Assembly: GCF_024748615.1 (NCBI RefSeq)
Contig: NZ_CP087168.1
Location: forward strand, 1,612,001-1,676,000
Source: Pseudomonas sp. B21-048
Lineage (GTDB): Bacteria; Pseudomonadota; Gammaproteobacteria; Pseudomonadales; Pseudomonadaceae
Direction of reading: 5' to 3'
Length of the DNA: 64,000 nt
The notes under the pieces were generated by a model. The model was not told the origin of the DNA. It did not search any database and worked only from the letters and a program-made list of their open reading frames with translations. A program made the translations under genes and the position numbers. Below, piece by piece: positions 16,932 to 47,785 of the stretch. The number at the start of each line of letters is the position of its first letter. Positions within the stretch are counted from its first letter, which is position 1.

Positions 16932-16955
16932 GTGCTCGAAAGTTTGAATGGATAA
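16932..16955 (+). CDS. Seven-codon leader frame overlapping the wbpM start
   Basis: GTG CTC GAA AGT TTG AAT GGA then TAA. AGGAGG (16919-16924) ends seven bases before this GTG, an ideal spacing, while it is 23 bases from the wbpM ATG at 16948, which lies inside the mini-frame in another phase. It may couple translation to wbpM, or be a shifted relic of an older N-terminus; the pseudogene copy at 46.3 kb has a GTG in phase with its ATG. Confidence 0.4.
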   Translation: MLESLNG

Positions 16956-18942
16956 AGTACGAAGAATTTTGCTGGGTTTGCCTCGTAGGCAAAAAAGACT
17001 GATACAGGTCGCCACCGATGTGGTTTTGGTGTGGGTCGCCTTGTGGCTGGCCTTTATCGTCCGCCTCGGCATCGACGACATGTACAATCCGCTAAAGTTG
17101 CATTTCTGGCTGTTCGTCAGTGCCTCGATTATTGCCATTCCCCTTTTCGTACGCTTTGGCATGTACCGCGCCGTCATGCGCTACTTCGGCAATGACGCGC
17201 TGATTGCCATCGTCAAGGCAGTCAGTCTGTCCTCGCTGATCCTCGCCGTGGTGGTCTACTGGTACAGCGGGCACGAAGTCGTGGTGCCGCGCTCCATCAT
17301 CTTCAATTATTGGTGGCTAAGCCTGGTAATCATTGGCGGCCTGCGTCTGTGCATGCGGCAGTATTTCATGGGCGATTGGTTCACCGCTGCGCAGCATGTA
17401 CCGTTTGTCAATCGAGACGATGGTTTGACCAAGGTCGCCATTTACGGCGCTGGCGTCGCGGGCAACCAGTTGGTTGCAGCGTTGCGCATGGGGCGCGTGA
17501 TGCGTCCTGTGGCGTTTATCGATGACGATTCCTCTATCGCGGATCGTTCGATTGCTGGGTTGCAGGTCTTTAAGCCCAAGCATATTCAGCAGATGATCGA
17601 CGTGACTGGCGCTCAGGAAATCCTTCTGGCGTTGCCGTCTTCGACTCGTGCGCGGCGTAGGGAGATTCTCAATTTTCTGGAGGACTTCCCGCTCCATGTG
17701 CGCAGTGTTCCGAATTTCACTGATTTGGCCAGTGGTCGGGTCAAGGTGGACGACATTCAGGAAGTCGACATTGCTGACCTGTTGGGGCGGGATTCGGTGC
17801 CAGCGCAGCCTGATTTGTTGGCTCGATGTGTCAAGGGCAAGACGGTTTTGGTGACGGGGGCGGGCGGTTCGATCGGTTCCGAGCTTTGTCGGCAGATTTT
17901 CTCCCTGGGACCGACCACGCTGTTGTTGTTCGATCATAGCGAATTCAATCTCTACAGCATTTTGTCCGAGCTCGAGCATCGTATTGCTCGTGAGTCGTTG
18001 CCTGTCCGGTTGTTGCCGATACTGGGGTCGATTCGTCATCCCCATAAACTTCTGGATGTGATGAAGACCTGGAATGTGGACACGGTTTACCACGCGGCGG
18101 CCTATAAGCACGTGCCGATGGTTGAGCACAACATTGCCGAAGGTGTGCTGAACAATGTGATCGGGACGCTCAATACCGCTCAGGCTGCATTGGAGGCGGG
18201 TGTTGCAAACTTTGTGCTGATCTCGACCGATAAGGCCGTACGCCCGACCAATGTCATGGGTAGCACCAAACGGCTGGCCGAGTTGACCTTGCAGGCCCTC
18301 AGTCGTGAGTTGGCGCCGGTGTTATTCGGGGACAAGTCCAATGTGTCCCGGGTCAACAAGACCCGTTTCACCATGGTCCGGTTCGGTAATGTGTTGGGCT
18401 CATCGGGATCGGTTATTCCGCTTTTCCACAGCCAGATCAAGTCGGGCGGGCCTTTGACGGTTACCCACCCGAAAATTACCCGTTACTTCATGACCATTCC
18501 CGAGGCGGCACAACTGGTAATACAGGCCGGCTCAATGGGGCAGGGTGGTGATGTGTTTGTGCTGGACATGGGCGAGCCGGTCAAGATCATTGAGCTGGCG
18601 GAGAAGATGATTCACCTGTCTGGCTTGAGCATTCGCTCGGAGAAAAATCCGCAAGGCGATATTGCCATCGAGTTCACTGGGCTGCGTCCCGGGGAAAAGC
18701 TTTACGAAGAGTTGCTGATCGGCGACAACGTGTCCGCTACCCGGCACCCGATGATCATGAGCGCCAAAGAGGATCATTTGCCTTGGGAAGTGCTCAAGCA
18801 CAACTTGATGGAGTTGCTGTCTGCCGTTGAGCGGGATGATTATTCGCGGGTTCGCCAACTTCTGCGTGACACTGTCAGTGGTTACGCCCCGGATGGTGAA
18901 ATCGTCGACTTGATTTACCAGCAGCGTCGCCTCGAACCTTGA
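16948..18942 (+). CDS. wbpM: WbpM/FlaA1-like UDP-HexNAc C4,C6-dehydratase
   Basis: A 664-residue membrane-anchored dehydratase that turns UDP-GlcNAc into its 4-keto-6-deoxy form, needed for QuiNAc, FucNAc and related first sugars of Pseudomonas O-antigens. Four hydrophobic segments fill residues ~20-140. A first nucleotide-binding region (IYGAGVAGNQL) lies near 170 and the catalytic Rossmann domain starts with TGAGGSIGSELCRQI near 305. STDKAVRPTNVMGSTKR holds the M-x3-K pair that replaces the usual Tyr-x3-Lys, and LRPGEKLYEELL is near the C-terminus. The length is full. A TGA immediately precedes the ATG in frame, which fixes the start. The decayed comEA stub follows directly. Confidence 0.95.
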   Translation: MDKVRRILLGLPRRQKRLIQVATDVVLVWVALWLAFIVRLGIDDMYNPLKLHFWLFVSASIIAIPLFVRFGMYRAVMRYFGNDALIAIVKAVSLSSLILAVVVYWYSGHEVVVPRSIIFNYWWLSLVIIGGLRLCMRQYFMGDWFTAAQHVPFVNRDDGLTKVAIYGAGVAGNQLVAALRMGRVMRPVAFIDDDSSIADRSIAGLQVFKPKHIQQMIDVTGAQEILLALPSSTRARRREILNFLEDFPLHVRSVPNFTDLASGRVKVDDIQEVDIADLLGRDSVPAQPDLLARCVKGKTVLVTGAGGSIGSELCRQIFSLGPTTLLLFDHSEFNLYSILSELEHRIARESLPVRLLPILGSIRHPHKLLDVMKTWNVDTVYHAAAYKHVPMVEHNIAEGVLNNVIGTLNTAQAALEAGVANFVLISTDKAVRPTNVMGSTKRLAELTLQALSRELAPVLFGDKSNVSRVNKTRFTMVRFGNVLGSSGSVIPLFHSQIKSGGPLTVTHPKITRYFMTIPEAAQLVIQAGSMGQGGDVFVLDMGEPVKIIELAEKMIHLSGLSIRSEKNPQGDIAIEFTGLRPGEKLYEELLIGDNVSATRHPMIMSAKEDHLPWEVLKHNLMELLSAVERDDYSRVRQLLRDTVSGYAPDGEIVDLIYQQRRLEP

Positions 18943-19094
18943 TTGTTACACGCTCTGTAACAGGCACATTTTCGGCCGAGTTGTCCCATGACTCAGGTTT
19001 GGGAGGCGGCTTCGGAAAAGCTGTTCTTCCTTATCAGTGTCATGGAACATCACTTATACGTACAGGCTGCTTCTGCTCTCTGATTTTTGCCCTG
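18943..19094 (+). pseudogene. 5' stub of comEA with its upstream region
   Basis: This stretch matches the sequence between the wbpM pseudogene and comEA at 47338-47495: TGTAAC, GGCAGCTTCGGAAAAGCTG-like and GTCATGGA blocks appear in the same order. The comEA start is changed to ATA (ATACGTACAGGC against ATGCGTACTGGC), and about 15 codons (RTGCFCSLIFAL) remain before homology stops near 19094 at an IS66 fragment. It is not expressible as a protein. Confidence 0.8.
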
Positions 19095-19185
19095 ATGCGA
19101 GATTCTCGACACGCTGCATCAGCTGCGCCGCCAGAGCGCGCAGTTGTTCAGGGTTAAAGTGGTCGAGATTAGGAAGCGAAGTCAT
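19095..19185 (-). pseudogene. IS66-family transposase (TnpC) N-terminal fragment
   Basis: Read leftward from an ATG at 19185 this encodes MTSLPNLDHFNPEQLRALAA followed by QLMQRVENLA, the typical start of Pseudomonas IS66 TnpC proteins. It ends abruptly where comEA homology begins. No tnpA, tnpB or terminal repeat is seen. Its C-terminal counterpart is a separate relic at 26264-26480. Confidence 0.75.
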
Positions 19186-19241: not shown

Positions 19242-20798
19242 TTACTTAGCAAGTATCACGGCAGCGATCTTTCTGATCTTTCTTTTCCACGATCCTGGAG
19301 CGCCCTCATTCTGTCGTTGAGTCATGACTGATACTTCCAACGCAAGCTTCTCCTGTGTCAGCTGCTCTATCACCGCTTGTAGCCCTGCGATCGTCTCAGA
19401 GTGCTCTTCAGATATCAAACGCCCGATTTCTTGCACTCTCTGGCGTTTTATATCCAGGTGATTCTGCAGCTGGTTTCTGTGATACGCATGCAATGGCGGA
19501 ACAAGGGCAGCACTGTCCAGCCCGCTGGCAAAAGCTTTCAAAAAAGCTTCTTGCGAGTAGTAACGCTCAAAATGCTGCAGTGCGAATGCGGCGTGCTGTT
19601 TCAACAACGGCTGGTCCCACTGCTTGAAAATCCGACCGAGTTCTTCATATTGACTCCAGGTATAGCTATCAGGATAAGCAAGATCGGATCCGGCGTGATA
19701 ACGGGAGCGATATGATTCGTGAGTAAGGACAGGCACCCCGATCGACATCGCTTCGATTAACGATTTGCCACCTCCAAGCGGGAAAGAAGAAACATATACA
19801 TCCACCGCGTTTTCGATCAGCGCCCGAGAGAGTGAAGCGACCCACGGTATATGAATGAACCGGTCATGGCTTACGTTCTCAGCATCGAGTTCCTCGTGGA
19901 TTTTCTGCAGAAATTCATCGGACAATTCCCCTATATGCACATGGTATCCGCGCGAGGCTTTTAGGATGCAAGCCACTGCACGTTCATAGCGCACCGCGTA
20001 TGATCCCGATTCGAACTTGGACATTCGACCGCATGAGCAGGTCGTCAAGACCCCTCGGTCGAGGAATCGGGTTTTGATTTGGGATGTACGGACAGCGCTG
20101 ATCGGCCAATAAAGCTGTTGCACGACTCCAATCTCGTTTTTGCACAACTCATATGACATGTTGTGCAAGTCGACATGCTGAAACGCTTCGCAAGTCACAC
20201 CAAGAGACAGATGGTGATCGCCATGGTGAATGTAATAGCGGTTCCTGATGCCAGGGGCGTGGGCCGCCACGATGCACACGATGTCCTGATTGTGACCGAG
20301 GGTCAAAACGGTGGAAGGATTCCACTCGCCAAGCCGCGCGGTCAGGGCATCGAGTTTGCCATCGAGCCCGGTTTCGGTCACAACGAAGACTTCGCAGCCG
20401 AGCAGAGACTCCCACTCGTTAATCGAGGCGTGATCGATACGATTGAACAGATCGGTCATGGCGACGCGAACCGGACTCTCGAACAGTCCGAGAGCCAGAT
20501 AGTCCTTGATTAGTTCGGTATGCCCTCCGGCCCTGACCAGTTCGGACACCAGAATGACGGTGCCCTGGCCTTCCCTCTCGGGCACATGGCAACGATCGGC
20601 ATAGTAGTAGTAGGCATCGGCTAGCATTCGGCACAGCGCATCGAGCTCGCGGCTCGCGAACACAACACCAATCGACGCCGGATCGTTGATGACTTGCTCG
20701 GCAAATGACTTGATGCACGCCATCGCATCGCCGTATTGCGATCGGCAAATATATTCCACAACCGTTTCTTGCAAGCGGGCGAGATCGAAATCATTCAT
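19242..20798 (-). CDS. Glycosyltransferase (GT4/GT-B type) with C-terminal coiled coil
   Basis: A 518-residue soluble protein. Residues ~78-100 (GTVILVSELVRAGGHTELI) look like the first strand and glycine loop of a GT-B enzyme, and FPLGGGKSLIEAMSIGVPVL (~345-365) is the C-terminal donor-binding motif of GT4-like proteins, with SLIEAMS in place of the EX7E glutamates. Residues ~440-505 form a predicted coiled coil (QNHLDIKRQRVQEIGRLISE), and the last residues are basic. It is the last gene of the minus-strand cassette, adjoining the aminotransferase gene (ends at 20798, where that one stops). It probably adds the amino sugar made by its neighbours; this is inference from position. Confidence 0.75.
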   Translation of the reverse strand: MNDFDLARLQETVVEYICRSQYGDAMACIKSFAEQVINDPASIGVVFASRELDALCRMLADAYYYYADRCHVPEREGQGTVILVSELVRAGGHTELIKDYLALGLFESPVRVAMTDLFNRIDHASINEWESLLGCEVFVVTETGLDGKLDALTARLGEWNPSTVLTLGHNQDIVCIVAAHAPGIRNRYYIHHGDHHLSLGVTCEAFQHVDLHNMSYELCKNEIGVVQQLYWPISAVRTSQIKTRFLDRGVLTTCSCGRMSKFESGSYAVRYERAVACILKASRGYHVHIGELSDEFLQKIHEELDAENVSHDRFIHIPWVASLSRALIENAVDVYVSSFPLGGGKSLIEAMSIGVPVLTHESYRSRYHAGSDLAYPDSYTWSQYEELGRIFKQWDQPLLKQHAAFALQHFERYYSQEAFLKAFASGLDSAALVPPLHAYHRNQLQNHLDIKRQRVQEIGRLISEEHSETIAGLQAVIEQLTQEKLALEVSVMTQRQNEGAPGSWKRKIRKIAAVILAK

Positions 20799-21901
20799 TA
20801 CTGGAAACTCGCAATAGTTTCACAAACGTAAGCCGCGTGCTCGAGGGGCATGTGTGGCCCGATCGGTAGACTGAGCTCAGTCTCGGCCAGTGCCTCCGCA
20901 ATGGGGAAAGCGCCCTTTTCGAAACCAAGAAACTGGTAAGCCTGCTGCATATGAGGAGGAATCGGGTAATGAATCAGCGTTTCAATACCGGCCTCCTTCA
21001 GCCTCGCATGCAAAGCATCACGCCGCTGCGAAAAAACGGGGAACAGATGCCACGACGACGTGCAATCCGGTTGCGGAGTCGGCACCCTCACACCGGTGTT
21101 TTGCAAGTGCTTCCGGTAATAGGCGGCAATCTCCCCACGACGCGCGTTCCATTCGTCGAGGAGCGGCAGCTTGACGGCCAGTGCCGCGGCGTGGATCGGG
21201 TCGAGCCGGCTGTTTAGGCCACAAACCTCATTGACGTATTTAACTTTAGAACCATAGTTTGCAATCGTCCGAATTCGCTCTGCGAGTTCGGCGTCGTTGG
21301 TAGTGACACCGCCCCCGTCACCGAACGCGCCGAGATTCTTGCCGGGATAGAAGCTCCACGCCACGGCATCTCCGTGCCCGCCGATGCGCGTACCACGATA
21401 ACGTGCGCCGTGCGCCTGTGCGCCATCCTCGAGGACCTGAACCCCCTTGTGGCGGGCCAGTTCGAGGATCGGCCCCATTGCTGCAGGCTGCCCATACAGA
21501 TGAACGGGCAGAATGACCTTGGTCTTACTGGTCATGGCCTGCTCAATGCGTTGTGGATCGATATTGAGGGTGTCGACGTCGGGCTCGACAGGCACGGGTC
21601 GTGCTCCGCACTGTGTCACGGCGAGCCAGGTAGCAATATAGGTATTGGACGGCACGATGACTTCGTCCCCTTCGGACACGCCCATCGCCATCAAGGTGAT
21701 ACGCAAGGCGTCGAGCCCGTTGCCGAGCCCGATCGCAAAACGGGCGCCCGCATAGTCGGCAAAAGATTTCTCGAATTGGGTAACTTCTTCCCCGAAGATA
21801 TACCACCCAGAATTGAGAGCCCGCGCGACCGCCTCATCGAGTTCGGGCTTGAGCTCGAGATAGGCGTTGCGGACATCAAGAAATGGCACTTTCACAATCA
21901 T
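20798..21901 (-). CDS. DegT/DnrJ/EryC1 sugar aminotransferase (FdtB/QdtB-like)
   Basis: A PLP-dependent aminotransferase of about 367 residues that would convert a dTDP-3-keto-6-deoxyhexose to the 3-amino sugar. PFLDVRNAYLELKPELDEA is the usual N-terminus, GLGNGLDALRI and EDGAQAHGARY are cofactor-site motifs, and the PLP lysine is in SFYPGKNLGAFGDGG. The ATG at 21901 is only one base from AGGAG; a GTG two codons later (21895) has the better seven-base spacing and gives a normal N-terminus. The frame is open to 22150, but that part overlaps the ketoisomerase gene. FdtA-type ketoisomerase upstream supports the 3-amino assignment. Confidence 0.9.
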   Translation of the reverse strand: MIVKVPFLDVRNAYLELKPELDEAVARALNSGWYIFGEEVTQFEKSFADYAGARFAIGLGNGLDALRITLMAMGVSEGDEVIVPSNTYIATWLAVTQCGARPVPVEPDVDTLNIDPQRIEQAMTSKTKVILPVHLYGQPAAMGPILELARHKGVQVLEDGAQAHGARYRGTRIGGHGDAVAWSFYPGKNLGAFGDGGGVTTNDAELAERIRTIANYGSKVKYVNEVCGLNSRLDPIHAAALAVKLPLLDEWNARRGEIAAYYRKHLQNTGVRVPTPQPDCTSSWHLFPVFSQRRDALHARLKEAGIETLIHYPIPPHMQQAYQFLGFEKGAFPIAEALAETELSLPIGPHMPLEHAAYVCETIASFQ

Positions 21902-22073
21902 GCTCCTAACTCTCGAATGGAATTGCATTGGCCGCACATTCGTAACACCAGACGATAATTGGCGATGCGCGAACACATACTGGACGCCCGCCCCCCGAAC
22001 GACACATCGGTCGTATCGGCGGGGTGTCCCTGCTGAAGGTATGGCGATCGAGGCAGCCAGGTCTCGCAGAAAC

Positions 22074-22484
22074 TCAACGAGACCGGACGGCGGCGATAAA
22101 CTCGTCGTAGTCCCGATAATAATCGGACTCGTCGAATTCCATGGACACAAGGACCAGGCAGACAGACCCGGGATCGAAGTTGAGCTCGGCCGCCCAGATC
22201 ATGGGGGGAATATGCAAACCTTGCCACGGACGATTGAGGTGGATCGTCCTCTTCTCCATCCCGTCGTCAAGCGTGACATCGAAACTGCCGGACAGGCAGA
22301 TCAACAGCTGGTGCAGTTCCTTGTGCGCATGCGCGCCACGGCCTTCCCCGGTCGGGATATCGTACAGGTAAAATACGCGCCTGATATCGAAGGGAACGTG
22401 TCGTCCACTTTCCATGAAAGTCAGGTTTCCCCGCGGATCGGTGATCTTGGGTAAATTGATGATTTTGCAATCAGACACAGACAT
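22074..22484 (-). CDS. FdtA/QdtA-like dTDP-6-deoxyhexose 3,4-ketoisomerase
   Basis: A small cupin of 136 residues of the FdtA/QdtA/WxcM family. These enzymes move the keto group of dTDP-4-keto-6-deoxyglucose from C4 to C3, giving the substrate of the neighbouring aminotransferase. Typical features are the N-terminal ITDPRGNLTF, the VFYLYDIP strand, the histidine motif GRGAHAHKELHQLL (about residues 49-62), and WQGLHIPPMIW. Length is normal for the family. Whether the product has the gluco (Qui3N) or galacto (Fuc3N) form cannot be told by eye. The start overlaps the end of the acyltransferase gene upstream by 14 bases. Confidence 0.92.
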   Translation of the reverse strand: MSVSDCKIINLPKITDPRGNLTFMESGRHVPFDIRRVFYLYDIPTGEGRGAHAHKELHQLLICLSGSFDVTLDDGMEKRTIHLNRPWQGLHIPPMIWAAELNFDPGSVCLVLVSMEFDESDYYRDYDEFIAAVRSR

Positions 22485-23445
22485 GCTGAATACCTAGTAG
22501 ATCAATATCATAATATTCGTGCACAGCGCCTCCGCCTCCGTATTCATGCTTGTACTGGTAGAGGCCTTCATTGAGAACCGTGCCCTCGCACTCGTTGCTC
22601 GTACCGAAGTCGAAATACCGGACCCCGGCTGAAAGGGCCTCGGTCGTGGCGTGATCGAACACTGCATCGAGCGCGGAAACCGAATAGGCCACCTCACTCG
22701 CCGCAATGTATTGCGCATGCCATGCCGTGCGCGCTTTGAACACCACGACCCCCGCCTCGACTTGCCCATCGATCTTGGCGCAGAACAACTCGATCCCCTC
22801 AGGGAAAAGAGTGATCAACTGCTCCATCTCTTCCACGCTGTGTACTGGAGCCGCGCCGTGCTTGCGCTCCAGATTATCGTTCAGCACCTGCCACAATGCC
22901 CGCACCTGCTCGGTCCCCGTCACCACTGACACCGATTTAAGCGCCTTTTTCAGCCCGCGTCGGCGGCGTTCGGAAGGTTTTGCGCGATCGGCCAGATCAA
23001 TTGTGCACGACAAGTCGCAGCGCGATCGGCGTGCGCCGAGCCGGAACAAGGCATAAAGATCGTCCTGCGACGGTCGAGATTGGTAGATATGGGGGACGGC
23101 CTTATAGCGAAGACGGTCGTATCCGCTCCTCCGGTAGTGCTCGCCCAACCGCTCCAACGCGTCGATCATCTTGCCGCCGCACAGGTAGCCATTGTGGACG
23201 ATGCCACCATAGGTGATACCGGGGTGGCTGATGACCATGGAGCGATCTGCCGGGGACTGCGCCGCAGGGAAAACGCCGACTATGCTGTCGGCGTGCATGA
23301 GTACAACCGATACATCCAGAAACCGGTCGCCATGGTATTCGAGAAAACGGCGCGAGTGCAGGAACGTGGCGTTTGCCGCCTTGGCGCAGAATGCATTCCA
23401 CGCTTCACTCAGTGTTGGTTGATAGCGCACGATTTCGATGGTCAC
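22471..23445 (-). CDS. FemAB/GNAT-like N-acyltransferase
   Basis: A 324-residue protein of the GNAT superfamily, closest in look to the FemAB or Acetyltransf_6 group. FLHSRRFLEYHGDRF near residue 28 is the usual first motif, SHPGITYGGIV follows, and the second half has EAGVVVFKARTAWHAQYIAAS and RYFDFGTSNE, the typical acyl-donor half. Such enzymes pass an aminoacyl or acyl group to an amine. Set between the ketoisomerase and a glycosidase-like gene, it may acylate the 3-amino sugar with an unusual group. A PglD-like acetyltransferase is also present, so the cassette has two candidate N-acylating enzymes. Overlaps both neighbours by a few bases. Confidence 0.8.
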   Translation of the reverse strand: MTIEIVRYQPTLSEAWNAFCAKAANATFLHSRRFLEYHGDRFLDVSVVLMHADSIVGVFPAAQSPADRSMVISHPGITYGGIVHNGYLCGGKMIDALERLGEHYRRSGYDRLRYKAVPHIYQSRPSQDDLYALFRLGARRSRCDLSCTIDLADRAKPSERRRRGLKKALKSVSVVTGTEQVRALWQVLNDNLERKHGAAPVHSVEEMEQLITLFPEGIELFCAKIDGQVEAGVVVFKARTAWHAQYIAASEVAYSVSALDAVFDHATTEALSAGVRYFDFGTSNECEGTVLNEGLYQYKHEYGGGGAVHEYYDIDLLGIQHVCV

Positions 23446-24365
23446 TGGATCAGCTCCGCGACGCAGAAGCCCTGCTCACCAAAGTTATTGCCGTTATAGA
23501 AGCAGTACGTTTTGGCCCCGACCGATAGCACGGCGGAATACATGATTGCCTCTGCATCTACGCCCGTCGGCGATACATCGAGTCCCATTTCTTGATCCTG
23601 ACGTACCCATTGAACCCCATCGCTGGACTCGGCATAGCCGAGACGATAGGCGGCAAAAGAACAGCGTCTAATCGAATAGAACATCTGATAATCACCGTTG
23701 TCGCGTTTGACGATCCACGGGCGGCCGAAACCGTGCTCATCGTCACCGGTGAGCGCCATGGACAAGATACCGCGATCCGACCACGTCACTCCGTCGGTCG
23801 ACTCCTGATACCGCAAGTCGTATACAGGCATCAGTTTTCCCCGCAATTCGGTCCAGTCGCTGCCTGCGATGTACCACATCTTGAACACGTCATCTTCCTT
23901 GACGACAAAACTCCCACAGCGAAACATTCGCTCGCTATCGCTTCGATCCAGGATCGGGACCTTGCTGTAGCGCTCGAACGTCTCGCCGCCATCGTGACTG
24001 ATAGCGAGTCCCGTAAAGATCCGGTATCGCACATTCACGCAGAGCTCGAATCCCGCGTAGTACATATACACGGTTCGCGCATCGACAGGGACAAGACTCA
24101 GGGCCATCAAACCATTGTCATCAAACGCCCCCGGTTCGCCGATATCGAGCAATGGCGCTGTCGCGACTTTCAACACCCGGGTCGGATCCGAGCTTGATAC
24201 ATCGACATAACCCGGGCGACCGCGCCCCTTGTCATCCAAGCATGTCAGATAGACACGGATGACATCATCGTTAAGTCGGTAAGGTATGGGGCCCATCGCA
24301 TGTGTTCTGGCCCAATCGAGAGATCCATCAGGCTTCCAGACAACGCCCAGCTTATTCCACTTCAT
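23442..24365 (-). CDS. Five-bladed beta-propeller glycosidase-like protein (GH43/GH32 clan)
   Basis: A 307-residue protein with repeats typical of GH43/GH68/GH130-like five-bladed propellers: HAMGPIPYRLNDDVIRVYLT, LSLVPVDARTVYMYYAGFE, GLAISHDGGETFERYSKVP, RYQESTDGVTWSDRG, FGRPWIVKRDNGDYQMFYS and GYAESSDGVQW. No signal peptide is seen, so it should act in the cytoplasm. The ATG at 24365 overlaps the previous stop by four bases; the frame extends to 24434 without family match. In sugar cassettes these proteins are of unclear role; they may bind or transfer sugar rather than hydrolyse. Catalytic residues could not be assigned with confidence. Confidence 0.75.
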   Translation of the reverse strand: MKWNKLGVVWKPDGSLDWARTHAMGPIPYRLNDDVIRVYLTCLDDKGRGRPGYVDVSSSDPTRVLKVATAPLLDIGEPGAFDDNGLMALSLVPVDARTVYMYYAGFELCVNVRYRIFTGLAISHDGGETFERYSKVPILDRSDSERMFRCGSFVVKEDDVFKMWYIAGSDWTELRGKLMPVYDLRYQESTDGVTWSDRGILSMALTGDDEHGFGRPWIVKRDNGDYQMFYSIRRCSFAAYRLGYAESSDGVQWVRQDQEMGLDVSPTGVDAEAIMYSAVLSVGAKTYCFYNGNNFGEQGFCVAELIQ

Positions 24366-25039: not shown

Positions 25040-25048
25040 TTCCTGCTC

Positions 25049-26263: not shown

Positions 26264-26480
26264 CCTTAGCCTTGCTTCGAAGTCTTCTACTGCGGCGGGT
26301 TGCAGCAACCGTTCAAGTGCGTGGCGCAGCCACGCGCGTAGGGCTCTTGGCCGTTGGCTTTAGTCGTCTCGACCAAACTGTAAAGTTGAGCACTGGCCGT
26401 CGCACCTTAGGGCGTGTCGCTGAACAGCCAGTTTTTGCGCCCGATCACGAAGGGCCTGATCGAACGCTCTGCTGCCGTGC
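26264..26480 (-). pseudogene. IS66-family transposase (TnpC) C-terminal fragment
   Basis: Read leftward this gives AAERSIRPFVIGRKNWLFSD then TP, a stop where the family has K, and then GATASAQLYSLVETTKANGQ EPYA, a frameshift, WLRHALERLL and VEDFEA. This is the IS66 TnpC C-terminus with at least one nonsense change and one shift. It has the same orientation as the N-terminal fragment at 19095-19185. Confidence 0.8.
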
Positions 26481-26725
26481 CGCCAGGGATGCGGACGATA
26501 CCGCAACCTTCAAGGCTTTCGCAGCTTAACAATTGGCGCTGAACAAGATCGATACTCAGTCGGGCTATCCGACCGCCATGGACCGGCCTATAGCCCCCGA
26601 CAAACTGAGTCTCGGATACAGGCGAGATAGCACTTGCGTGCGATGATCTGTAAATCCTTACGGAGCGGATGAAGATAAGGTAGCATTCCGGCCCCCAACA
26701 AGTTATCGCTAGGATATTAGCTTTC

Positions 26726-27868: not shown

Positions 27869-27883
27869 TCAAATAATTAAAAC

Positions 27884-39535: not shown

Positions 39536-40974
39536 GTTGCTACCCAGAACACCAACCCAAACAAAGCGCCAACGACTAGACTGCTGCGGTCGCGGATGGC
39601 GAACACTACAGGGTCATCATGCATTTGCCCGCGATGAGTGAGCATCCACACTCGAGTGATCCAGAACAAGAGCAGCGGGCAGGCTAGCCAGATCACTTGT
39701 GGATGGGCATAAAGCCCGGTTGTAGCCTGATCATGGATGTACAGAGCCAAGACCATTACCGCTAGATAACCGGAAGACGCGCCCAGCGAGGAAATCATTT
39801 CCAGGTCGGCGGGATAGTAGCCTCGCCCACGGGTTTTCCCGGTATCGCCCTTGCGCCTTGCTTCGCGCAGTTCTGCGTAGCGCTTAACTAGTGCGAGGCT
39901 GAGGAACATGAACATCGAGAACGCCAGAATCCAGAATGTCAGTTCCAAACCGAATGCTGCCGCGCCAGCTATGATGCGCAGGGTATAAAGCGCAGCCAGG
40001 GTGATCACATCGATAGCCATCTGTCGTTTCAATGACAGCGAATAGGCGAGAGTTAATATGTAATATGCAATGAGGGTTCCGGAAAACTCCCAAGGCATAA
40101 GCCATGCAGCCCCGGAAAAAGCGCCAACCAATAATACGGGAAAGAGCTGTAGCCCGGACTTGATCGACAATCGCCCAGCGGCAAAAGGACGATGCCGCTT
40201 GGAGTGATGATGCCGGTCATCGGCGAGGTCCAACAAGTCATTAAGCACATAGACGCTAGAGGCACATAACCCAAAAAAGAGAAAGGCCAATACTCCCTGC
40301 CATAGGAGCATGGGGTTGGTCAATTGATGCGCCGCCATTAGAGGCACAAAAATCAGCGCATTCTTCATCCACTGATGCAGCCGCAACGCCTTCAACCAGT
40401 CCTTCAGCCTGGAAGGATTGGAGTGAATCACCTGTTCGACATTGCCCTGTGCCCGAGCGTCACGCTCAACACCGGATTCCGGATTGACCACATAAGCCTT
40501 CCGGGCAACCGCCCAAACTGGGACGTCGTCATGAGAGTTGCCCGCGTAATCAAAGCCCTGCTCACCATAGTGCTCGACCAACAGATCGCGTTTACGGTGG
40601 GCCGACAGGTTTCGCTTGCTATCAGAGGCTAGCACCTGGTCAAACAATTGAAGATGTTCAGCAATACGTTCGGCCAGGCTGTAATGGCTGGCTGTCGCCA
40701 GCACTACGGTCCGACCGTTACGCCGCTCGACTTCAATTAGTTCAATGACCGCAGGATCGAAAGGCAGGACACTGACATCAATATGGGTGGCATGGGCGAG
40801 ACCTTCCTTTAAAGCTACCTTGCCTTTGGTTAACCAAATAAAGGGTTTAAACAGGCTCAATGGCTTATGCCGAACAAAAGCCATACCTGTTTCCAGCAGC
40901 AGATCGGAGCGCAGCAGGGTACCGTCGAGATCGACAACAAGCGGAATAGTGGGAGGTGTTATATGGACAGTCAC
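39532..40974 (-). CDS. UbiA-family prenyltransferase fused to HAD phosphatase (DPPR synthase-like)
   Basis: A 480-residue two-domain protein. Residues 1-190 are a HAD phosphatase: LVVDLDGTLLRSDLL has the DxDGT nucleophile, ATASHYS the second motif and YAGNSHDDVPVW the acidic third. Residues ~195-480 are a polytopic UbiA prenyltransferase with NDLLDLADDRHH (first acidic motif). This pair makes polyprenyl-phospho-ribose from PRPP and polyprenyl phosphate and removes the 5-phosphate, the entry to lipid-linked D-arabinose. The start is GTG at 40974 with AGGAAAGAG upstream. It is the first gene of the operon. Confidence 0.9.
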   Translation of the reverse strand: MTVHITPPTIPLVVDLDGTLLRSDLLLETGMAFVRHKPLSLFKPFIWLTKGKVALKEGLAHATHIDVSVLPFDPAVIELIEVERRNGRTVVLATASHYSLAERIAEHLQLFDQVLASDSKRNLSAHRKRDLLVEHYGEQGFDYAGNSHDDVPVWAVARKAYVVNPESGVERDARAQGNVEQVIHSNPSRLKDWLKALRLHQWMKNALIFVPLMAAHQLTNPMLLWQGVLAFLFFGLCASSVYVLNDLLDLADDRHHHSKRHRPFAAGRLSIKSGLQLFPVLLVGAFSGAAWLMPWEFSGTLIAYYILTLAYSLSLKRQMAIDVITLAALYTLRIIAGAAAFGLELTFWILAFSMFMFLSLALVKRYAELREARRKGDTGKTRGRGYYPADLEMISSLGASSGYLAVMVLALYIHDQATTGLYAHPQVIWLACPLLLFWITRVWMLTHRGQMHDDPVVFAIRDRSSLVVGALFGLVFWVAT

Positions 40975-41552: not shown

Positions 41553-42087
41553 CCTGGAGAAAAGTACGCCCACCAGTCACGGTAAACGGGAAGCACATCT
41601 GGTGGTAGGTGTACTTCGTGGATTGCATACGAATAAACGACGGCGCCTCTTAGCAGCGTCGGGCGCGATCTACGCCACGATAGTGTGAGCTCCTCGAAAC
41701 TCGCAATACCGAGACCTGCCGGATCCGAAACGACAGGTAACGAGCGGTCCAAGGCTCAGGAACGCCTACGCTTCTGACCTCCCCCGACACGCTTTATCGC
41801 AACGACGTCTTGGCAGAGCAGCAGCACAAGCGCCTTCAGAGGAGCAGCGCGCTCCAGCTCGCAGTTGGACGGTGCATAGTCTGATTGAGCTGCAAGAGGA
41901 CCAAGTGGCGTTGTATGATCCTCACCGCGTCATCAATGACCGCACGCGAATACGTGTGATCGAGGTCTGCAGCGAAGACATCGGCTCCGCCCTGACGAAG
42001 CGCCGGGCAATTGCCCTGCGCGGGCAATGAGCTGTTGGAAGAATAGAAATTTCTTATTATTTTTAATTAAAATCAGGGCGGAAATAC
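41553..42087. other. Unassigned sequence between intron relic and acyltransferase
   Basis: No gene supported. A plus-strand stretch at about 41840-42030 translates to SLIELQEDQVALYDPHRVIN and on to a stop near 42028 and could be the tail of a lost gene, but no family was recognised. Confidence 0.35.
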
Positions 42088-43176
42088 ATGCTGCACAAAG
42101 ATAATAACTTGAACTTGTTACGGTTGGTTGCCGCGCTGATGGTGCTATATGCTCATTCATTCGATGTTTACGGTAATTCCCCGGAGATCTTTATTGGTCT
42201 TGATTCCTATGGCGGGCTCGGGATTGCGATATTTTTTGTCATTAGTGGTTATTTGATTGCAAAAAGTTGGAGTTTTGATCCTTCGGTCATTAGTTTTTTA
42301 GTTAAGCGATCGCTGCGAATATTTCCAGCCCTGATTGTTGTTACCGTGGTAACCTCGTTTTTGCTTGGTCCCATTTTTTCCACTTTGACAGTCAAGCAGT
42401 ATTTCTCAGATCTGGCATTTGTTATGTATTTAAAGAATATAATTTTAAATCCAGTATTCTATTTGCCGGGCGTGCTGGAGCACGCCAGGGTTGCCAATGT
42501 GATCAATGGTCCTCTATGGAGTTTGCCTATCGAGTTTTTCATGTATTTGGTAGTCGTGGCGCTTGGGCTTCTATTCAATGGCGGTCGTCTTGTATACACA
42601 ATTACCACCGCATTGTTTGCGCTGATTGTGGTTTTTTGGTGCTGGCGAGATGCGCCTTTGCTGGTGGTTTATGGTACTGATGTAAGAAACATTCCGTTGA
42701 TAGGCATTTATTTCATGATTGGGGCATGTTATGCGAAGTGGGGGCTCGAACGGTGGTTCAGTCTCTCCGGCGTAACTGTCATGGTGATGATGACCCTTCT
42801 TCTGGCGCCGTATTCATCGATTTCCAAGCCCCTGCTATGGCTTACGTTGCCGTATGTCGTCTTAGCATATGGACTTTCCAGAAGTTGGTTGGGAAGCTTG
42901 GTTAATAAAGTGGGTGACTGCTCTTACGGTGTTTATATCTATGCTTTTCCGGTTCAGCAGTTTGTTTTGCTAAAATTCCCCGGTATTGCCTATTCAACCT
43001 ACCTTGTTGTTACAGTGGTCATTACTCTGGTTTTGGGATACGGCTCTTGGCATTTGATAGAGAAAAGGGTTCTCAAATTCAAGCCAAAAAATAAAGTCAG
43101 GTTTGTATCGAATGGTGTTGATGCCGATTCGGCGTTAAATCCTGTTGTGGGTGAGAAGCTCAATTCAGGGGCTTGA
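42088..43176 (+). CDS. Acyltransferase 3 family membrane O-acyltransferase
   Basis: A 362-residue member of the OafA/acyltransferase-3 family, the third in this window. NLNLLRLVAALMVLYAHSFD holds the family's R and the H of the active site (YAHS in place of HH), GGLGIAIFFVISGYLIAKSW the second motif, LWSLPIEFFMYLV the third, and CSYGVYIYAFPVQQ the C-terminal one. GGCGGA precedes the ATG. It has the AT-rich composition of the other two acyltransferase genes. It would O-acylate a surface sugar; target unknown. Confidence 0.88.
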   Translation: MLHKDNNLNLLRLVAALMVLYAHSFDVYGNSPEIFIGLDSYGGLGIAIFFVISGYLIAKSWSFDPSVISFLVKRSLRIFPALIVVTVVTSFLLGPIFSTLTVKQYFSDLAFVMYLKNIILNPVFYLPGVLEHARVANVINGPLWSLPIEFFMYLVVVALGLLFNGGRLVYTITTALFALIVVFWCWRDAPLLVVYGTDVRNIPLIGIYFMIGACYAKWGLERWFSLSGVTVMVMMTLLLAPYSSISKPLLWLTLPYVVLAYGLSRSWLGSLVNKVGDCSYGVYIYAFPVQQFVLLKFPGIAYSTYLVVTVVITLVLGYGSWHLIEKRVLKFKPKNKVRFVSNGVDADSALNPVVGEKLNSGA

Positions 43177-43305
43177 GCAAGTGTATGTATTTATGATGTA
43201 ACAGTCACTCAGGTCACCCATGAAGAGCTACAGGGTCTGCCGCGACAGCGCAGACGCCTGACGATCCTAAAACCCACCAGGGATTCATAATGCCCGGTTT
43301 ATGGA

Positions 43306-43515
43306 TCAGCTTCTTCCAACAAAGTGTTCGCTCCAACTACCTTTTTTTGAAAGGTCCGTATACTCAATGGTCAGTTCTGGGTGAACAGACTTTAATATGG
43401 CGAGGTTCGTTCGGTGTTTGTCGAGCCCCACGATGTCAGTGTGTCCGCGGCTTTTTAAACATGCCACCAAATCTTGCCCGACCAAACCTGCTCCGTCTGG
43501 AGGGATTGTTTTCAT
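43306..43515 (-). pseudogene. N-terminal fragment of a sugar epimerase (paralogue of 34454-35404)
   Basis: The 69-residue frame contains DGAGLVGQDLVACLKSRGHT and LDKHRTNLAILKSVHPELT, which align with [18 protein letters not shown] and [19 protein letters not shown] of the intact epimerase. It stops after SWSEHF where the intact protein continues for 240 residues. It overlaps the GT-C gene by four bases, as the intact pair does. Confidence 0.82.
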
Positions 43516-45134
43516 TTTGGCTCTCCATTTAAGCCCAGCATACTTAAGTTGGATCTTCGTTTCAGGCAGTAATTGATGCAGCTGGAAAAACCAAAACTGA
43601 GAAAGATACTTGCTATGGGCAACACTGCAAGCATTTCCTTGGATCGAACACTCAGTAGCATCAACGAAGAACTAACCAATAATGCTGTAGACAAGACTAA
43701 CAAGCTTGCCTGGAAGGCTTTTCTGATGTTTTGTGTTTTAGATATAGCGATACATGAGACGAACGCCAGCAAGGCATAGACCCAAGGTGGCGGAGTCAGA
43801 AAATTCATCCAACCAAAAAACGCCATGCCTTGGTGTTGTGCTTTTTCGGCAGGATTCCAGTACAGCATATGTTGAGGTATACGGCCCGGAGGAGGGGTCA
43901 GTTTAACGCTGCCATCTGCTTGAATAGTGTCACCAATAAGCAGATACAAGCTATTTGATTTTAAAGGTGTGAGTTGGAATGGTTTTTCGATGAAAAAAGC
44001 TAACCACCCCGTGATCAATTTCGCGATGTAGGCGGCGGGTATCGCCAGCACCGATTCTTTATACACGGCTATACCGAGGGCGTCTGTTTGCGGAAGCCCG
44101 ATATAGTAATAGCCGGGAATGGCCGAAATATGAATGTTAAATGTTTCAGGCAGGGGATGCTGGGTCGTGAAATCAATCAACTCCGAGCGCGATGCGTTCA
44201 TCAGATAATTATATTGTGCGAGGTAGGGGGCTCTTACTTCTTTTGGTGCGCCCCAATCAACGTCTTGATAGGCGGCAGCCCTGAAATATTCCGGTGGTAA
44301 AATTGCGCCAAGGGCCCGCCACCTCAAACTGTTGATTCCCAGCTTGTTTGGTTCCTGAGTGATGTAGTTGTCGGGTATTGCGTCAATTAGAACCCAGGCA
44401 TGATCGTAACTCAGTTGCCGTGAATTGGTCGTCGGGTAGTGAAAGGTTTCGACAAATACAAATATAAGTGTGGTGCTCGCCGATAGGGCAACGATGGCTG
44501 TCGCGATTTTCCAAGTCCAGTCCTTGCTGTCAAAAATTACTAACATCGCAATGACAGGGGCGATTACCAAAGAATTGAACTTTACAAGGTAGGCAGCCGT
44601 AAGAATAACTGCGGATAGTATATACAAAATTATTTTTGCATCATTTTTTACATCGAACGCCCAGAGAGCGGTCAGCAGTGCGATGGCAAGAAAGTCTCCT
44701 TGTAGCCAGTCCGGTCCGATGGAATTGACCCCGCCCATGAAAAACAGACTGCCACCCCAGGCTAGGCACATAAGTGTGGCTGAGATTTTACCAAATATTT
44801 TATTGCATATGAATGTGCTAATTGCGATGGCGAGCAAATGGAAGTAAAAGTGAATGTGCTGTAAGTGTCGCAACCACTTAAAATTATAGATGTCTACTCC
44901 ATTAGGTACGCCAGCAAAGTCCAGTGCGAAGCGTGCGGCCAAAGTATATCCACTGGCGTGGATAAGATTGGATACTCTAGAGAAAATCATCTGAGCATAA
45001 TTTGGATAGTCAAAGGCAGCAATATTGATAGGGTACGTGTTCAGGTAGTACAGATTCAACAGAATGACAATGGCTAGGGCAATTAGTAATAAATGCCTTT
45101 GAAGCAGATTGCCTAGGGTATTTAAAGCTGACAT
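43512..45134 (-). CDS. Polytopic membrane protein, probable GT-C glycosyltransferase
   Basis: A 540-residue integral membrane protein with about ten hydrophobic segments. The first is near residues 12-30, followed by an extracytoplasmic loop containing AAFDYPNYAQMIF with an acidic residue where GT-C enzymes bind metal, and later NSIGPDWLQGDFLA. It does not resemble the GT-C of the intact arabinose operon closely by eye, but occupies the same position between the DprE2-like and epimerase segments. The frame is intact although both neighbours are decayed. Function is inferred from position and topology only. Confidence 0.6.
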   Translation of the reverse strand: MSALNTLGNLLQRHLLLIALAIVILLNLYYLNTYPINIAAFDYPNYAQMIFSRVSNLIHASGYTLAARFALDFAGVPNGVDIYNFKWLRHLQHIHFYFHLLAIAISTFICNKIFGKISATLMCLAWGGSLFFMGGVNSIGPDWLQGDFLAIALLTALWAFDVKNDAKIILYILSAVILTAAYLVKFNSLVIAPVIAMLVIFDSKDWTWKIATAIVALSASTTLIFVFVETFHYPTTNSRQLSYDHAWVLIDAIPDNYITQEPNKLGINSLRWRALGAILPPEYFRAAAYQDVDWGAPKEVRAPYLAQYNYLMNASRSELIDFTTQHPLPETFNIHISAIPGYYYIGLPQTDALGIAVYKESVLAIPAAYIAKLITGWLAFFIEKPFQLTPLKSNSLYLLIGDTIQADGSVKLTPPPGRIPQHMLYWNPAEKAQHQGMAFFGWMNFLTPPPWVYALLAFVSCIAISKTQNIRKAFQASLLVLSTALLVSSSLMLLSVRSKEMLAVLPIASIFLSFGFSSCINYCLKRRSNLSMLGLNGEPK

Positions 45135-45146: not shown

Positions 45147-45857
45147 TTATCGATGAGGCTGGATGTATAGAGTTTTATCACTTGCAGTAAATCTGACTAT
45201 AGATTTATCCGCTTGAATATAAAGTTTGGTAAATGTTTGATAATAAGCATTATCAGTGCCCAGAGTTGGAGTGTACAGCGTGTTGGTTTTATTTTGCACC
45301 GCTTTGACAATGCTAAGTGCTACCTTTTCAGGTTGTGCTATCAGCAGGGGAGGCAGGTTGAGCTCCTTGGTCATAGGTGTTTGAACAAAACCGGGTTTGA
45401 TGGTAGTCACCGAAACGCCGACTTTGAACAGTCTTGCGCGCAAACCCTCGCAGAATGTGGAAACGGCAGCTTTTGCTGTGCCGTATAAATGCCGCTTGGA
45501 CTCTGCTGTCAGATTGCGTTCTTCATTGGTCGCCAGTACAAGATCAAAAAGTTGCAGGTACTCTGCAATTTTCTCGGCCAGAGTGTAATGGCTGGCGGTG
45601 GCAAGTACGATGAGTCGATTTTCGTTTTTTGCAATTTTTATCAACTCCAGCACGGCTGGGTTGTAAGGTAAAACATTAACATCTATATCGGTTGCAGAAG
45701 CCAGTTGCGACTTCAGCACCGTTTTACCTTGCGCCAGCCAGCCTACCGTTTTATAGAGCTGAAATGGATGGCGACGGATAAATGCCATGCCGGTTTCTAC
45801 CAATAAGTCCGAACGCAACAACGTTCCGTCGAGGTCAACCACGAGGGGGAGGGTCAC
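45147..45857 (-). CDS. In-frame chimera: HAD phosphatase head fused to DprE2-like SDR tail
   Basis: A 236-residue open frame. Residues 1-~125 match the HAD domain of the UbiA-HAD protein (LVVDLDGTLLRSDLLVETGM, ATASHYTLAEKIAEYLQLFD). At KR-HLYGTAKAAVSTF it switches to the C-terminal half of the DprE2-like SDR (LYGTAKAAVSTFCEGLRARL, KPGFVQTPM). The UbiA domain, the whole DprE1 gene and the Rossmann loop of DprE2 are gone. It is best explained by one large deletion in a second copy of the arabinose operon. GTG 45857 is chosen because AGGACAGTTCTT precedes it as in the intact gene. It keeps neither complete enzyme, so it is probably non-functional. Confidence 0.85.
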   Translation of the reverse strand: MTLPLVVDLDGTLLRSDLLVETGMAFIRRHPFQLYKTVGWLAQGKTVLKSQLASATDIDVNVLPYNPAVLELIKIAKNENRLIVLATASHYTLAEKIAEYLQLFDLVLATNEERNLTAESKRHLYGTAKAAVSTFCEGLRARLFKVGVSVTTIKPGFVQTPMTKELNLPPLLIAQPEKVALSIVKAVQNKTNTLYTPTLGTDNAYYQTFTKLYIQADKSIVRFTASDKTLYIQPHR

Positions 45858-46273
45858 AAGAACTGTCCTTGAATGCTGGACTAACAAATCAGTTTGTTAG
45901 GTCGATGGAGGCCGCCGGAGGCGATATATTTGCTCCTGTGATGGCTAGCCAACCATCCACACTAAGTTTTGCGGGGCACGTTACCATAGAGAGCGCTTGT
46001 CGTCATGGATCCAGTGCCAATGAGACGCACCCGGATAGACCTTATGGCATAACCATAGACGGTGAGTATTTTTCATTGCAAAGCCCTTTATTCCTCAGGT
46101 GTGCCTCAGGAGCATCAGCTGTAGGGAGGGCCTGTGTTTGTTCGGACCGCTGATGACCCCACTGCCGGAATGTCTGGTCCATAAATAGATCCAAGCGTGA
46201 TTGATGTAATTCAGGTTTATAGTGTCGGGGCTTTTTTTAGCCCGCTGAATGGAGTTAGGTGCTTGATAGGAGT
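45858..46273. other. Intergenic region between the chimera and the wbpM pseudogene
   Basis: About 415 bases without a supported gene. A GGGGCT-T7-AGCCC element is at 46227-46243. Similarity to the sequence before intact wbpM begins only in the last 20 bases. Confidence 0.45.
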
Positions 46274-47337
46274 ATGGACAGAATGAGACTGTTTTTGTTG
46301 GCGCTACCGCGTCGATAGAAAAGACTGCTACAAGTCGTCACAGATGTGGTTCTGGTATGGGTTGCGCTGTGGATCGCTTACGTGGTGCGCTTGGGTGTTG
46401 ACGAGATGGTCAATCCTTTCAAGTGCATCTCTGGTTATTCCTTTTCGCGGCTGTGGTTGCGATTCCACTTTTTGTCCGCTTCGGCATGTACCGAGCTGTC
46501 ATGCGTTATTTTGGTAATGACGCATTGATTGCCATCATAAAGGCCGTCAGCCTTTCATCTCTGATCCTGCGGTCGTGGTTTATTGGTACAGCAATCACGA
46601 AACGGTCGTGCCTTGCTCAATAGTCTTTAACTACTGGTGGCTAAGCCTCGTTATCATCGGCGGTCTGCGCCTGTACATGCGTCATATTTCATGGGCGACT
46701 GGTTCACCGCCGCGCAGCATGTACCGTTCGCCAACCGGGATGATGGCCTCACCAAAGTCGCTATCTACGGTGCAGGTGTAGCCGGCAATCAGCTGGTTGC
46801 AGCACTTCGCATGGGCCGAGTCTTGCGTCCCGTGGCTTTTATCGATGATGATCCGAGCATCGCGGATCGTTCGATTGCCGGGTTGCAAGTCTACAAACCC
46901 AAACACATCCAACAGTTGATAGACGTAACCGGCGGTCAGGAAATCCTCCTAACACTGCCGTCATCAACCCGCGCACGACGTCAGGAAATTCTCACTATTC
47001 TGGAGCGTTTTCCGCTTCACATCTGAAGCGTACCCAACTTCCAATCTAGCCAGTGGCCGGGTAAAGGTCGAAGACATCCAGGAAGTTGATATCGCCGACC
47101 TTCTGGGACGCGATTCGGTGCCTGCACAACCCACCAGGACAAACTTCTGGATGTGATGAAGACCTGGGGGTGGACACCGTCTACCACGCTGCCTTGGGAT
47201 GTGCTCAAGGGCCGTTTGAGGGAGTTGCTGATTGCCGTTGATCATGACGATTACGCTCGCGTGAAACCGTCAGCGGCTACACCCCTGATGGCGATATCGT
47301 TGACTGGATCTACCAGCGACGTCGCCTCGAACCCTGA
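46274..47337 (+). pseudogene. wbpM: wbpM pseudogene with internal deletions
   Basis: It begins MDRMRLFLLALPRR then a TAG where wbpM has CAG, and continues with VVTDVVLVWVALWIAYVVRL. Several frameshifts break the N-terminal half, which runs to DIADLLGRDSVPAQP. It then jumps to HQDKLLDVMKTW, jumps again to WDVLKGRLRELLIAVDHDDY, and ends with RRRLEP-like codons and TGA 47335-47337. Most of the catalytic dehydratase domain is deleted. It is followed by an intact comEA, the reverse of the situation at 18.9 kb. Confidence 0.92.
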
Positions 47338-47449
47338 TTGTTTCACATCCTGTAACGGACACATTTTTGACAGTCTCCAGACATCGCCTAAGTTTGGAAG
47401 GCAGCTTCGGAAAAGCTGCTTTCTCAATCGATGTCATGGAGCTTCATTT

Positions 47450-47785
47450 ATGCGTACTGGCTATTTCTACTCTCTGGTTTTTGCCCTGCTCACCAGCGCC
47501 TCCATTGCGGCCATTGCCGCGCCGACAGCGGCGCCGGAGGCTGCCAAGGCACCGTTGATGCTGGACGTTACTACCAAGGCTAAAACCGGAAAAGTCGATC
47601 TCAATGGGGCTGATGCGCCGACTCTGCAGCGTGAGCTGTCCGGCATTGGTGAGGCGAAGGCCAAGGCGATTGTTGCGTATCGTGAGAGTAATGGGCCATT
47701 TTCGTCCGTCGACGAATTGCTGGAAGTGAAAGGGATCGGCAAAGCCATTCTGGACAAGAATCGCGAGAAGCTGGAAGTGAACTAA
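47450..47785 (+). CDS. comEA: ComEA-like helix-hairpin-helix DNA-binding protein
   Basis: A 111-residue exported protein. Residues 1-~22 are a signal peptide (FALLTSASIAAIA before APT). The rest has two helix-hairpin-helix motifs: LSGIGEAKAKAIVAYRES and LLEVKGIGKAILDKNREK, with KVDLNGADAPTLQRELSGIG the typical ComEA lead-in. Such proteins bind DNA in the periplasm and may serve DNA uptake. GGAG lies eight bases before the ATG. The longer frame to 47153 belongs to the pseudogene before it. A terminator follows. Confidence 0.9.
   Translation: MRTGYFYSLVFALLTSASIAAIAAPTAAPEAAKAPLMLDVTTKAKTGKVDLNGADAPTLQRELSGIGEAKAKAIVAYRESNGPFSSVDELLEVKGIGKAILDKNREKLEVN

Follow-up and report, generated by a model that had tools for sequence, protein, structure and literature searches.

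The 64-kb stretch of DNA analyzed here, hereafter called the window, spans positions 1612001 to 1676000 of the 5.71-Mb single-contig genome G000, whose named relatives are Pseudomonas and whose assignment to that genus is taken from these named matches. It carries a surface-glycan locus with two copies of a border composed of the gene wbpM, a short spacer, and the gene comEA, each copy having lost a different gene. At the left border, wbpM is intact (16948–18942, + strand), forming a 664-codon open frame whose 664-residue product matches Polysacc_synt_2 (E 1e-122) and is 97% identical to the corresponding protein in the genomes G199, G156, and G249. It is followed on the same strand (18943–19094) by a spacer (18943–19055) and a comEA stub (19056–19094) that retains 13 codons and an altered start codon; this segment is part of a 74% match to 47190–47488 and scores 200 bits with the border model described below. 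At the right border, self-alignment with the left border identifies a gutted wbpM (46274–47337, + strand). The frame of this copy is broken by a stop at codon 15, by single-base deletions at 46423, 46568, and 46684, by a TGA near 47025, and by a 2-base deletion at 47040, and most of codons 289–610 are missing. Its 5′ half includes 216 bp with 97.7% identity to a wbpM remnant of G156. A second spacer (47338–47449, + strand) then leads to an intact comEA (47450–47785, + strand), a 111-codon frame that passes the cut-off of the ComEA model TIGR00426, fails that of TIGR01259, and has 96% amino acid identity to the proteins of G241 and G254.

Comparison of the window with itself by blastn links the two borders through three colinear matches in the same orientation: 16967–17810 with 46293–47131 (76.1% over 844 bp, E 3e-171), 18046–18098 with 47141–47192 (88.7% over 53 bp), and 18779–19094 with 47190–47488 (74.3% over 319 bp, E 3e-51). 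The 844-bp and 319-bp matches are the strongest self-matches of the 64 kb, and the border alignment scores 375, compared with 0–4 for five shuffled copies of the right border. In both copies, the hairpin block GGCAGCTTCGGAAAAGCTG is followed by GTCATGGA and then by the comEA signal peptide. An earlier note on this DNA had described an intact wbpM with a dead comEA stub facing a gutted wbpM with an intact comEA, with spacer elements in matching order. The self-comparison, the reading frames, and the shuffles confirm this description, and its coordinates prove correct to within a few bases. The borders align at 74–89% identity, and in relatives both border copies consist of wbpM and comEA, such that neither of the findings that the note would have counted against itself was obtained.

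The right spacer contains a TTTTTGACA block and, between this block and the comEA start, a hairpin of about 14 bp at 47390–47430 (fold z −2.78, compared with −1.2 for the left copy), which is also present in the plain borders that were looked at. This hairpin may terminate the wbpM operon, or it may belong to the leader of comEA. The TTTTTGACA block had raised the suspicion that the spacer holds a sigma-70 promoter for comEA; a consensus scan found none.

The genes to the left place this arrangement in a familiar setting. Left of the window are prephenate-dehydratase, aminotransferase, EPSP-synthase, cytidylate-kinase, and S1 domain genes, then an IHF/HU-type (ihfB) gene with a Bac_DNA_binding domain (L058:17154–17450, 3′ of the cytidylate-kinase and S1 domain genes), and then rmlB-, rmlD-, and rmlA-type genes, an order that, as judged from sequence, is the usual left edge of the O-specific-antigen (OSA) locus. 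The rmlA gene, whose 5′ end lies left of the window, occupies 19–798 (+ strand) and scores above the NCBIfam cut-off for RmlA. Next, on both strands, is the left O-antigen cluster (853–16287), in which Pfam identifies glycosyltransferases, epimerases, a WbpL-like GT4 protein, an acyltransferase, and an ABC exporter. Thus far the locus has the form expected of an OSA locus, with an ihfB-type gene on the left and a glycan cluster whose content varies among relatives. Its right end is not wbpM: the intact wbpM is followed by 28 kb of additional DNA, largely glycan genes, and by the second, broken wbpM.

Both borders lie within a segment that was exchanged between species. An identity profile in 750-bp bins yields native-like flanks on both sides, where identity to the G241 group is 86–99% and exceeds that to G199 in nearly all bins. 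The block between the flanks has poor matches or none in the native relatives, and different parts of it are matched by G199, G156, or G249, mostly at 88–99%; the exceptions are 1.5 kb near 38 kb (77–78%) and the stretches at 26.5–28.3 and ∼32–33 kb, which none of the three match closely. The left cluster is 88–98% identical in G199 and G156 and 81–97% identical in G249. Within rmlA, diagnostic sites are mostly native up to 459 and mostly of donor type from 489 onward, each side having single exceptions. On the right, 19 of 19 clear sites from 47200 to 47378 are of donor type and 25 of 26 clear sites from 47531 onward are native, which places the crossover in the spacer or in the first 80 bases of comEA. 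In the gutted wbpM, donor type extends even to the last 149 bases, which share 88.5% identity with G156 and 87.3% with G199, versus 72–76% with natives. A coarse reading of the profile had put this crossover inside the gutted wbpM, a placement superseded by the finer diagnostic sites. The crossover points of the exchanged unit are consequently located to within about 30 bases on the left and 150 bases on the right. As delimited by these sites, the exchanged block comprises ∼46.9 kb (∼0.47–47.4 kb), with the two borders inside it; by this measure, neither wbpM copy is native, and the comEA beyond the crossover is native, from 47531 at the latest. The block presumably traveled into this species.

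Relatives provide both the plain form of the junction and a graded series of the doubled form. The five closest relatives by comEA (G241, G254, G204, G135, and G104) have wbpM and comEA adjacent, ∼113 bp apart, and no second border was found in 39–59 kb of their DNA, except for a wbpM fragment in G135. This fragment comprises 34 codons and lies ∼900 bp upstream of wbpM. The plain arrangement is therefore the state of the nearest relatives. Three genomes of other species, G199, G156, and G249, have the left wbpM together with a second, broken wbpM adjoining an intact comEA, and the breakpoints differ: the right copy keeps codons 371–664 in G199, codons 115–186 and 481–664 in G156, and codons ∼13–45 and 106–241 in G249. 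Note that the two borders of G156 and of G249 are on different contigs, and that wbpM matches by tblastn were dropped if under 55% or 48% identity, depending on the search, as were minus-strand matches in some searches. The left comEA is likewise graded, ranging from a near-full pseudogene in G249 through ∼40 codons in G199 and 13 codons in the window to part of the spacer only in G156. The proposal of the earlier note that each border copy lost a different gene is borne out by this graded decay.

Phylogenetic tests bear on whether the second border was imported or duplicated. In a tree of the spacer plus comEA, the left copies of G000, G199, G156, and G249 form one clade (support 100/99), and the right copies group with relatives of each host. 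Trees in which the left and right copies of one genome are sisters are rejected for comEA (p 0.003 for G000, 0.00009 for G199, and 0.0002 for G249, with rejection for G006 as well) and for the 5′ part of wbpM (p 2e-22 for G000), a demand that is strict, given left copies common to four species. In its 5′ part, the gutted wbpM clusters with G156 and not with the left copy. From these trees, the two border copies of the window are shown to differ in immediate origin; a shared origin further back, through duplication in a donor lineage, is only weakly disfavored.

We surveyed the site in 148 genomes of the genus (own included), drawn from the comEA matches listed among 298 sampled genomes and leaning toward relatives of the window comEA; locus classes were assigned by eye from coordinates, and gaps of up to ∼200 bp were counted as adjacent. 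The plain arrangement, with wbpM next to comEA, occurs in 93 of the 148 genomes. The interval is occupied, or the border doubled or present as a remnant, in 49, and the others are unresolved at contig ends (four) or lack wbpM at the site (two). Among the 80 genomes nearest by comEA (own included), 54 are plain, 16 are filled, four carry two full wbpM genes in tandem, two have borders on separate contigs, two are unresolved, and two are without wbpM; the 68 further genomes comprise 39 plain, 23 filled, two tandem, two remnant, and two unresolved cases. The 49 include G156 and G249, with borders on different contigs, and the remnant states G092 and G197. These counts support the suggestion of the earlier note that the wbpM–comEA junction is a repeated landing site for glycan clusters. 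Among named strains, two wbpM genes are present at this site in Pseudomonas sp. K18 and in Pseudomonas sp. ICMP 561, the latter with 6 kb separating them from comEA; P. putida 17522 has 2.5 kb past the wbpM stop, and P. juntendi BML3 has 6.6 kb. In the inserts of other loci, 96 proteins include 10 DegT aminotransferases, nine GT2 and six GT1 glycosyltransferases, eight acyltransferases, seven hexapeptide transferases, and two IS66 transposases; this tally covers proteins of at least 190 residues from 20 stretches in 18 loci (without G000, G181, G220, and G011) and the first 25 of 74 families, and one protein may match several families.

A border model was built from 12 plain genomes, with the wbpM stop at position ∼103 and the comEA start at ∼218, and was applied to 48 loci, namely the 49 minus G092, which has one border only. 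In 23 of these loci, the left and right matches overlap, meaning that the border is duplicated (22 without G197, whose overlap is a short local repeat); the remaining 25 are split near the wbpM stop codon, with matches that overlap by fewer than 20 bases. Left matches stop at model positions 87–333 and right matches begin at 1–131. Throughout the 48 loci, the left match keeps the end of wbpM and the right match keeps the block before comEA, limits that fit erosion up to what each side must keep. A search for the inverted polarity in 12 plain loci (17–57 kb upstream) found no second border on the + strand, and one wbpM fragment, that of 34 codons in G135; in the genome survey, this polarity was also sought as wbpM fragments at E 1e-40.

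The right border of G006 consists of spacer and comEA, preceded by DNA that in other genomes is found just upstream of wbpM; wbpM was thus lost cleanly from this border. G006, where both comEA genes are intact, and G152, where the border is split, share one 5.7-kb insert (92.8% identity). This insert links the two classes, and a doubled border can therefore end up as a split one. Three separate border pieces are present in G242 (L182). Two full-length wbpM genes occur in tandem or a few kilobases apart in G231, G301, G310, and G226, and in the loci L102 (Pseudomonas sp. K18) and L110 (Pseudomonas sp. ICMP 561). In a wbpM tree, the left copies of G231, G301, and G310 form a long-branched clade of their own; possibly they are not decaying borders but a separate kind of wbpM that has a distinct task. 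The sequence of G197, once considered a collapsed double border, proved to be a short direct repeat, and that reading was rejected.

The DNA between the borders of the window is a mosaic. It begins with a five-gene module on the − strand (19242–25798), including a DegT aminotransferase and a GNAT protein, that is common to G199 at 94% identity. An IS66 transposase remnant (26267–26484, − strand; tblastn with the IS66 transposase of G067, E 3e-20; Pfam search of the own genome, E 3e-6) is followed, within 26726–31789, by an acyltransferase gene (26726–27868, + strand) and a gene for a 1127-residue glycosyltransferase (28406–31789, − strand), both identified by Pfam, the latter occurring inverted in G199. 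Genes on the − strand (32770–40974) encode, according to Pfam and NCBIfam, a GtrA protein, an amine-oxidase-like protein, an epimerase, a 643-residue protein that matches no Pfam family, and proteins resembling DprE2, DprE1, and phosphoribosyltransferases. Most of this set (33165–40974) sits in the left cluster of G249. The set, of arabinofuranose-donor type, resembles the decaprenyl-phosphoryl-arabinose (DPA) pathway, and a PRK08238 UbiA match exceeds its cut-off; this naming is a lead because the DprE1 (E 2e-105) and DprE2 (E 7e-50) matches fall below the curated NCBI cut-offs. Farther to the right are an IS66 end remnant (41578–41636, + strand; blastn 79.7% over 59 bp, E 1e-8) in opposite orientation to the first, and, within 42088–45134, an acyltransferase gene (42088–43176, + strand) and a gene for a 540-residue protein without a Pfam match (43512–45134, − strand), identified by Pfam and by counterpart comparison. 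The last frame (45147–45887, − strand) is a collapsed second DPA-type set in which Pfam and the junction sequences identify an N-terminal HAD part fused to a C-terminal SDR part; this single frame was made by a 2.8-kb deletion with a 6-base overlap, and G156 has the genes uncollapsed. Hence wbpM, comEA, and the DPA-type set are three redundant sets in one locus, each with one intact and one broken member.

When blastn pieces under 150 bits are left out, the segment at 19.1–26.1 kb and, inverted, that at 28.4–31.9 kb match G199; 33.2–41.0 kb matches the left cluster of G249; 41.6–43.3 kb is as in G199 (inverted) and G156; and 43.3–46.1 kb, together with part of the gutted wbpM, is as in G156. 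The earlier note had regarded the 28 kb as inserted DNA. That DNA is indeed present between the borders, but the exchanged unit is the larger block of ∼0.47–47.4 kb, and the 28 kb is an assembly of pieces that are separate in three species, not one insertion. Leaving the collapsed frame aside, 14 of the 16 inter-border frames compared have a close, stop-free counterpart in another species, with dN/dS values of 0.08–0.46, and two have no close copy in another species. Because of these counterparts, the inter-border DNA looks like living DNA with mostly functional-looking genes rather than a graveyard, and they speak against the idea that the 28 kb is a decaying, superseded cluster. A Pfam scan of 30 frames between 19 and 47785 found no integrase family, with frames lacking any Pfam match remaining. 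Outside the locus, palindromic stretches of ∼110 bp, repeated, 79–87% alike, and in both orientations, are present at 55475–55585 and 58983–59166.

We consider these data best explained, with a probability of about 0.78, by an OSA locus that gained a further cluster without giving up the one it had, hence the two wbpM–comEA borders, through a history of three steps. First, in a donor lineage, DNA ending in wbpM, spacer, and comEA would have been joined upstream of a resident cluster that had such an end of its own; one side was probably joined through homology and the other irregularly. Subsequently, as the graded series shows, redundancy was shed at each border, with the upstream copy losing comEA and the copy beside comEA losing wbpM. 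Finally, the double-border allele would have spread between species by homologous recombination, an exchange documented by the diagnostic sites in a direction that we presume; in the window genome, ∼46.9 kb would have arrived through crossovers in rmlA (459–489) and in the spacer or comEA start (47378–47531). The inter-border DNA continues to be reshuffled. The wbpM–comEA junction is thus the right-hand crossover zone here and, across the genus, a place where extra glycan genes accumulate. Several observations weigh against this history. The nearest relatives of the left wbpM are not those of the left comEA stub; the left border is therefore itself a patchwork, and no donor can be named. A less strict tree for comEA, in which one right copy joins the clade of the four left copies, is not rejected for G000 (p 0.08) or G199 (p 0.15) but is rejected for G249 (p 0.008), and the joint-clade tree for wbpM gives p 0.043. 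Local duplication evidently also happens: in G190, the left comEA is interrupted by a stop codon and is sister to the intact right comEA, and in G197 (L201, 11820–12040) the end of wbpM and the start of the spacer recur as a short, near-exact direct repeat, next to a wbpM without its first 324 codons. The polarity of loss is partly built in, with loci having been found by full wbpM and by comEA. Moreover, among the 59 of the same 80 genomes that have an SDR gene at E 1e-75, the comEA–SDR interval exceeds 1 kb in six (G177, G263, G070, G235, G295, and G095); the wbpM–comEA site is favored, not unique, because this control interval takes up DNA too.

Some of these points would be expected if the resident wbpM–comEA border, with or without its cluster, had been duplicated in tandem, after which the copies diverged and each lost a different gene. 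The shared order and orientation of the two borders, the sister comEA copies of G190, and the near-exact repeat of G197 are all in keeping with such an event, and in three of the four tree tests an ancient duplication in the donor lineage retains p values of 0.04–0.15. However, the border copies differ at about a quarter of their bases, the left copy is common to three other species, sister-pair trees are rejected, and the gutted wbpM is placed by its 5′ part with G156 rather than with the left copy. We therefore regard duplication as unlikely overall. Its recent form, a tandem duplication in this species, is refuted by these trees, and an older duplication in the donor lineage is weakly disfavored (p 0.008–0.15) and seems unlikely. 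Of the two origins that the earlier note had offered, import of a second wbpM-ended cluster fits the trees better and stands, and tandem duplication in this species falls. Simple insertion, in which the 28-kb block entered between wbpM and comEA just past the wbpM stop, would account for the 25 of 48 split loci, whose left and right matches both end near that stop, and may have operated in them. It cannot yield two spacers and two wbpM ends, both of which are present in the window, where the border alignment refutes it, and 22 other loci also have overlapping borders (one, G197, by local repeat). The insert common to G006 and G152 indicates that a split border can be the end stage of a doubled one, and the sharp limits of the matches coincide with what selection should be expected to keep. 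We give simple insertion very little weight overall.

IS66 elements might also have brought in the glycan pieces, with a border copy as passenger. The oppositely oriented remnants at 26267–26484 and 41578–41636 bracket 15 kb (26.5–41.6 kb), of which the 28.4–31.9 kb part is inverted in G199; IS66 remnants lie between the borders in nine of 23 loci, and in G199 one of them touches the truncated wbpM. Yet similar pieces are present in the cluster of four of 12 plain loci and in only two of 24 further loci and are not specific to doubled borders; 14 of the 23 and 22 of the 24 loci lack any IS66 piece (the search was confined to this IS family), and no IS66 match of the window is at either crossover of the 46.9-kb block. 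Transposon build-up is accordingly a very remote prospect as the origin of the borders. The remnants may drive rearrangement inside the locus, the ends of which are not marked by them.

The addition of a cluster followed by loss of redundancy has consequences for how such loci are read. Doubled borders look like a serotype change in mid-course, with addition first and redundancy loss later, and the order of these steps can therefore be tested by strain comparison. We entertain, tentatively and with considerable doubt, a broader notion that the conserved wbpM–comEA spacer serves the genus as a permanent platform for exchange, with clusters stacked behind wbpM and dead border copies persisting partly as homology arms. 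If so, new surface glycans would be added, tried alongside the old, and later dropped, not merely swapped. There is also a practical consequence. In approximately one-third of the genomes surveyed (49 of 148), an extraction rule running from ihfB to wbpM, such as that of PMC8319346, would miss sequence that lies past or around wbpM, either additional DNA or what remains of a border, and much of the missed DNA consists of glycan genes.

The ingredients of this locus are ordinary, and what is instructive, and recurrent, is their arrangement: OSA replacement is already established, and the doubling of a flanking block is known in the meningococcus. OSA clusters are delimited by ihfB and wbpM (PMC8319346), and an OSA variant lies between these genes in all 43 strains compared in another report, which cites replacement by recombination for pathogenic Pseudomonas (PMC13101481). 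The locus described here resembles these loci in its IHF/HU-type gene and rmlB-, rmlD-, and rmlA-type genes on the left, wbpM on the right, and a species-variable cluster between; it differs in that glycan genes run 28 kb past wbpM and the border gene pair is doubled. The OSA passages of PMC13101481 and PMC8319346 that we consulted make no mention of DNA between wbpM and comEA, and our literature search, which did not extend to most subscription journals and hence does not imply absence from print, found no paper on wbpM–comEA insertions. A second O-antigen cluster in one genome is described for the OBC3-type island of P. protegens and relatives, where it was gained in mosaic fashion (PMC10715155 and PMC13101481). 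That island is located elsewhere on the chromosome, between an aerotaxis receptor and a protease gene, and not behind wbpM. The closest known parallel is provided by capsule regions D and D′ of the meningococcus (rfbABC, galE, and a truncated galE2), in which the second copy was inferred to be foreign, clearly so in 23 of 39 isolates, and duplication was also discussed by the authors as an alternative (PMC6619384). There, as here, a flanking block is present twice and one gene copy is truncated; in the window, the flanking block is doubled around glycan genes, and each border has one redundant gene copy broken, the comEA stub on the left and the gutted wbpM on the right. The meningococcal case concerns a Neisseria capsule at one locus of one species, whereas the wbpM–comEA border is doubled in many species of one genus and in graded states of decay.

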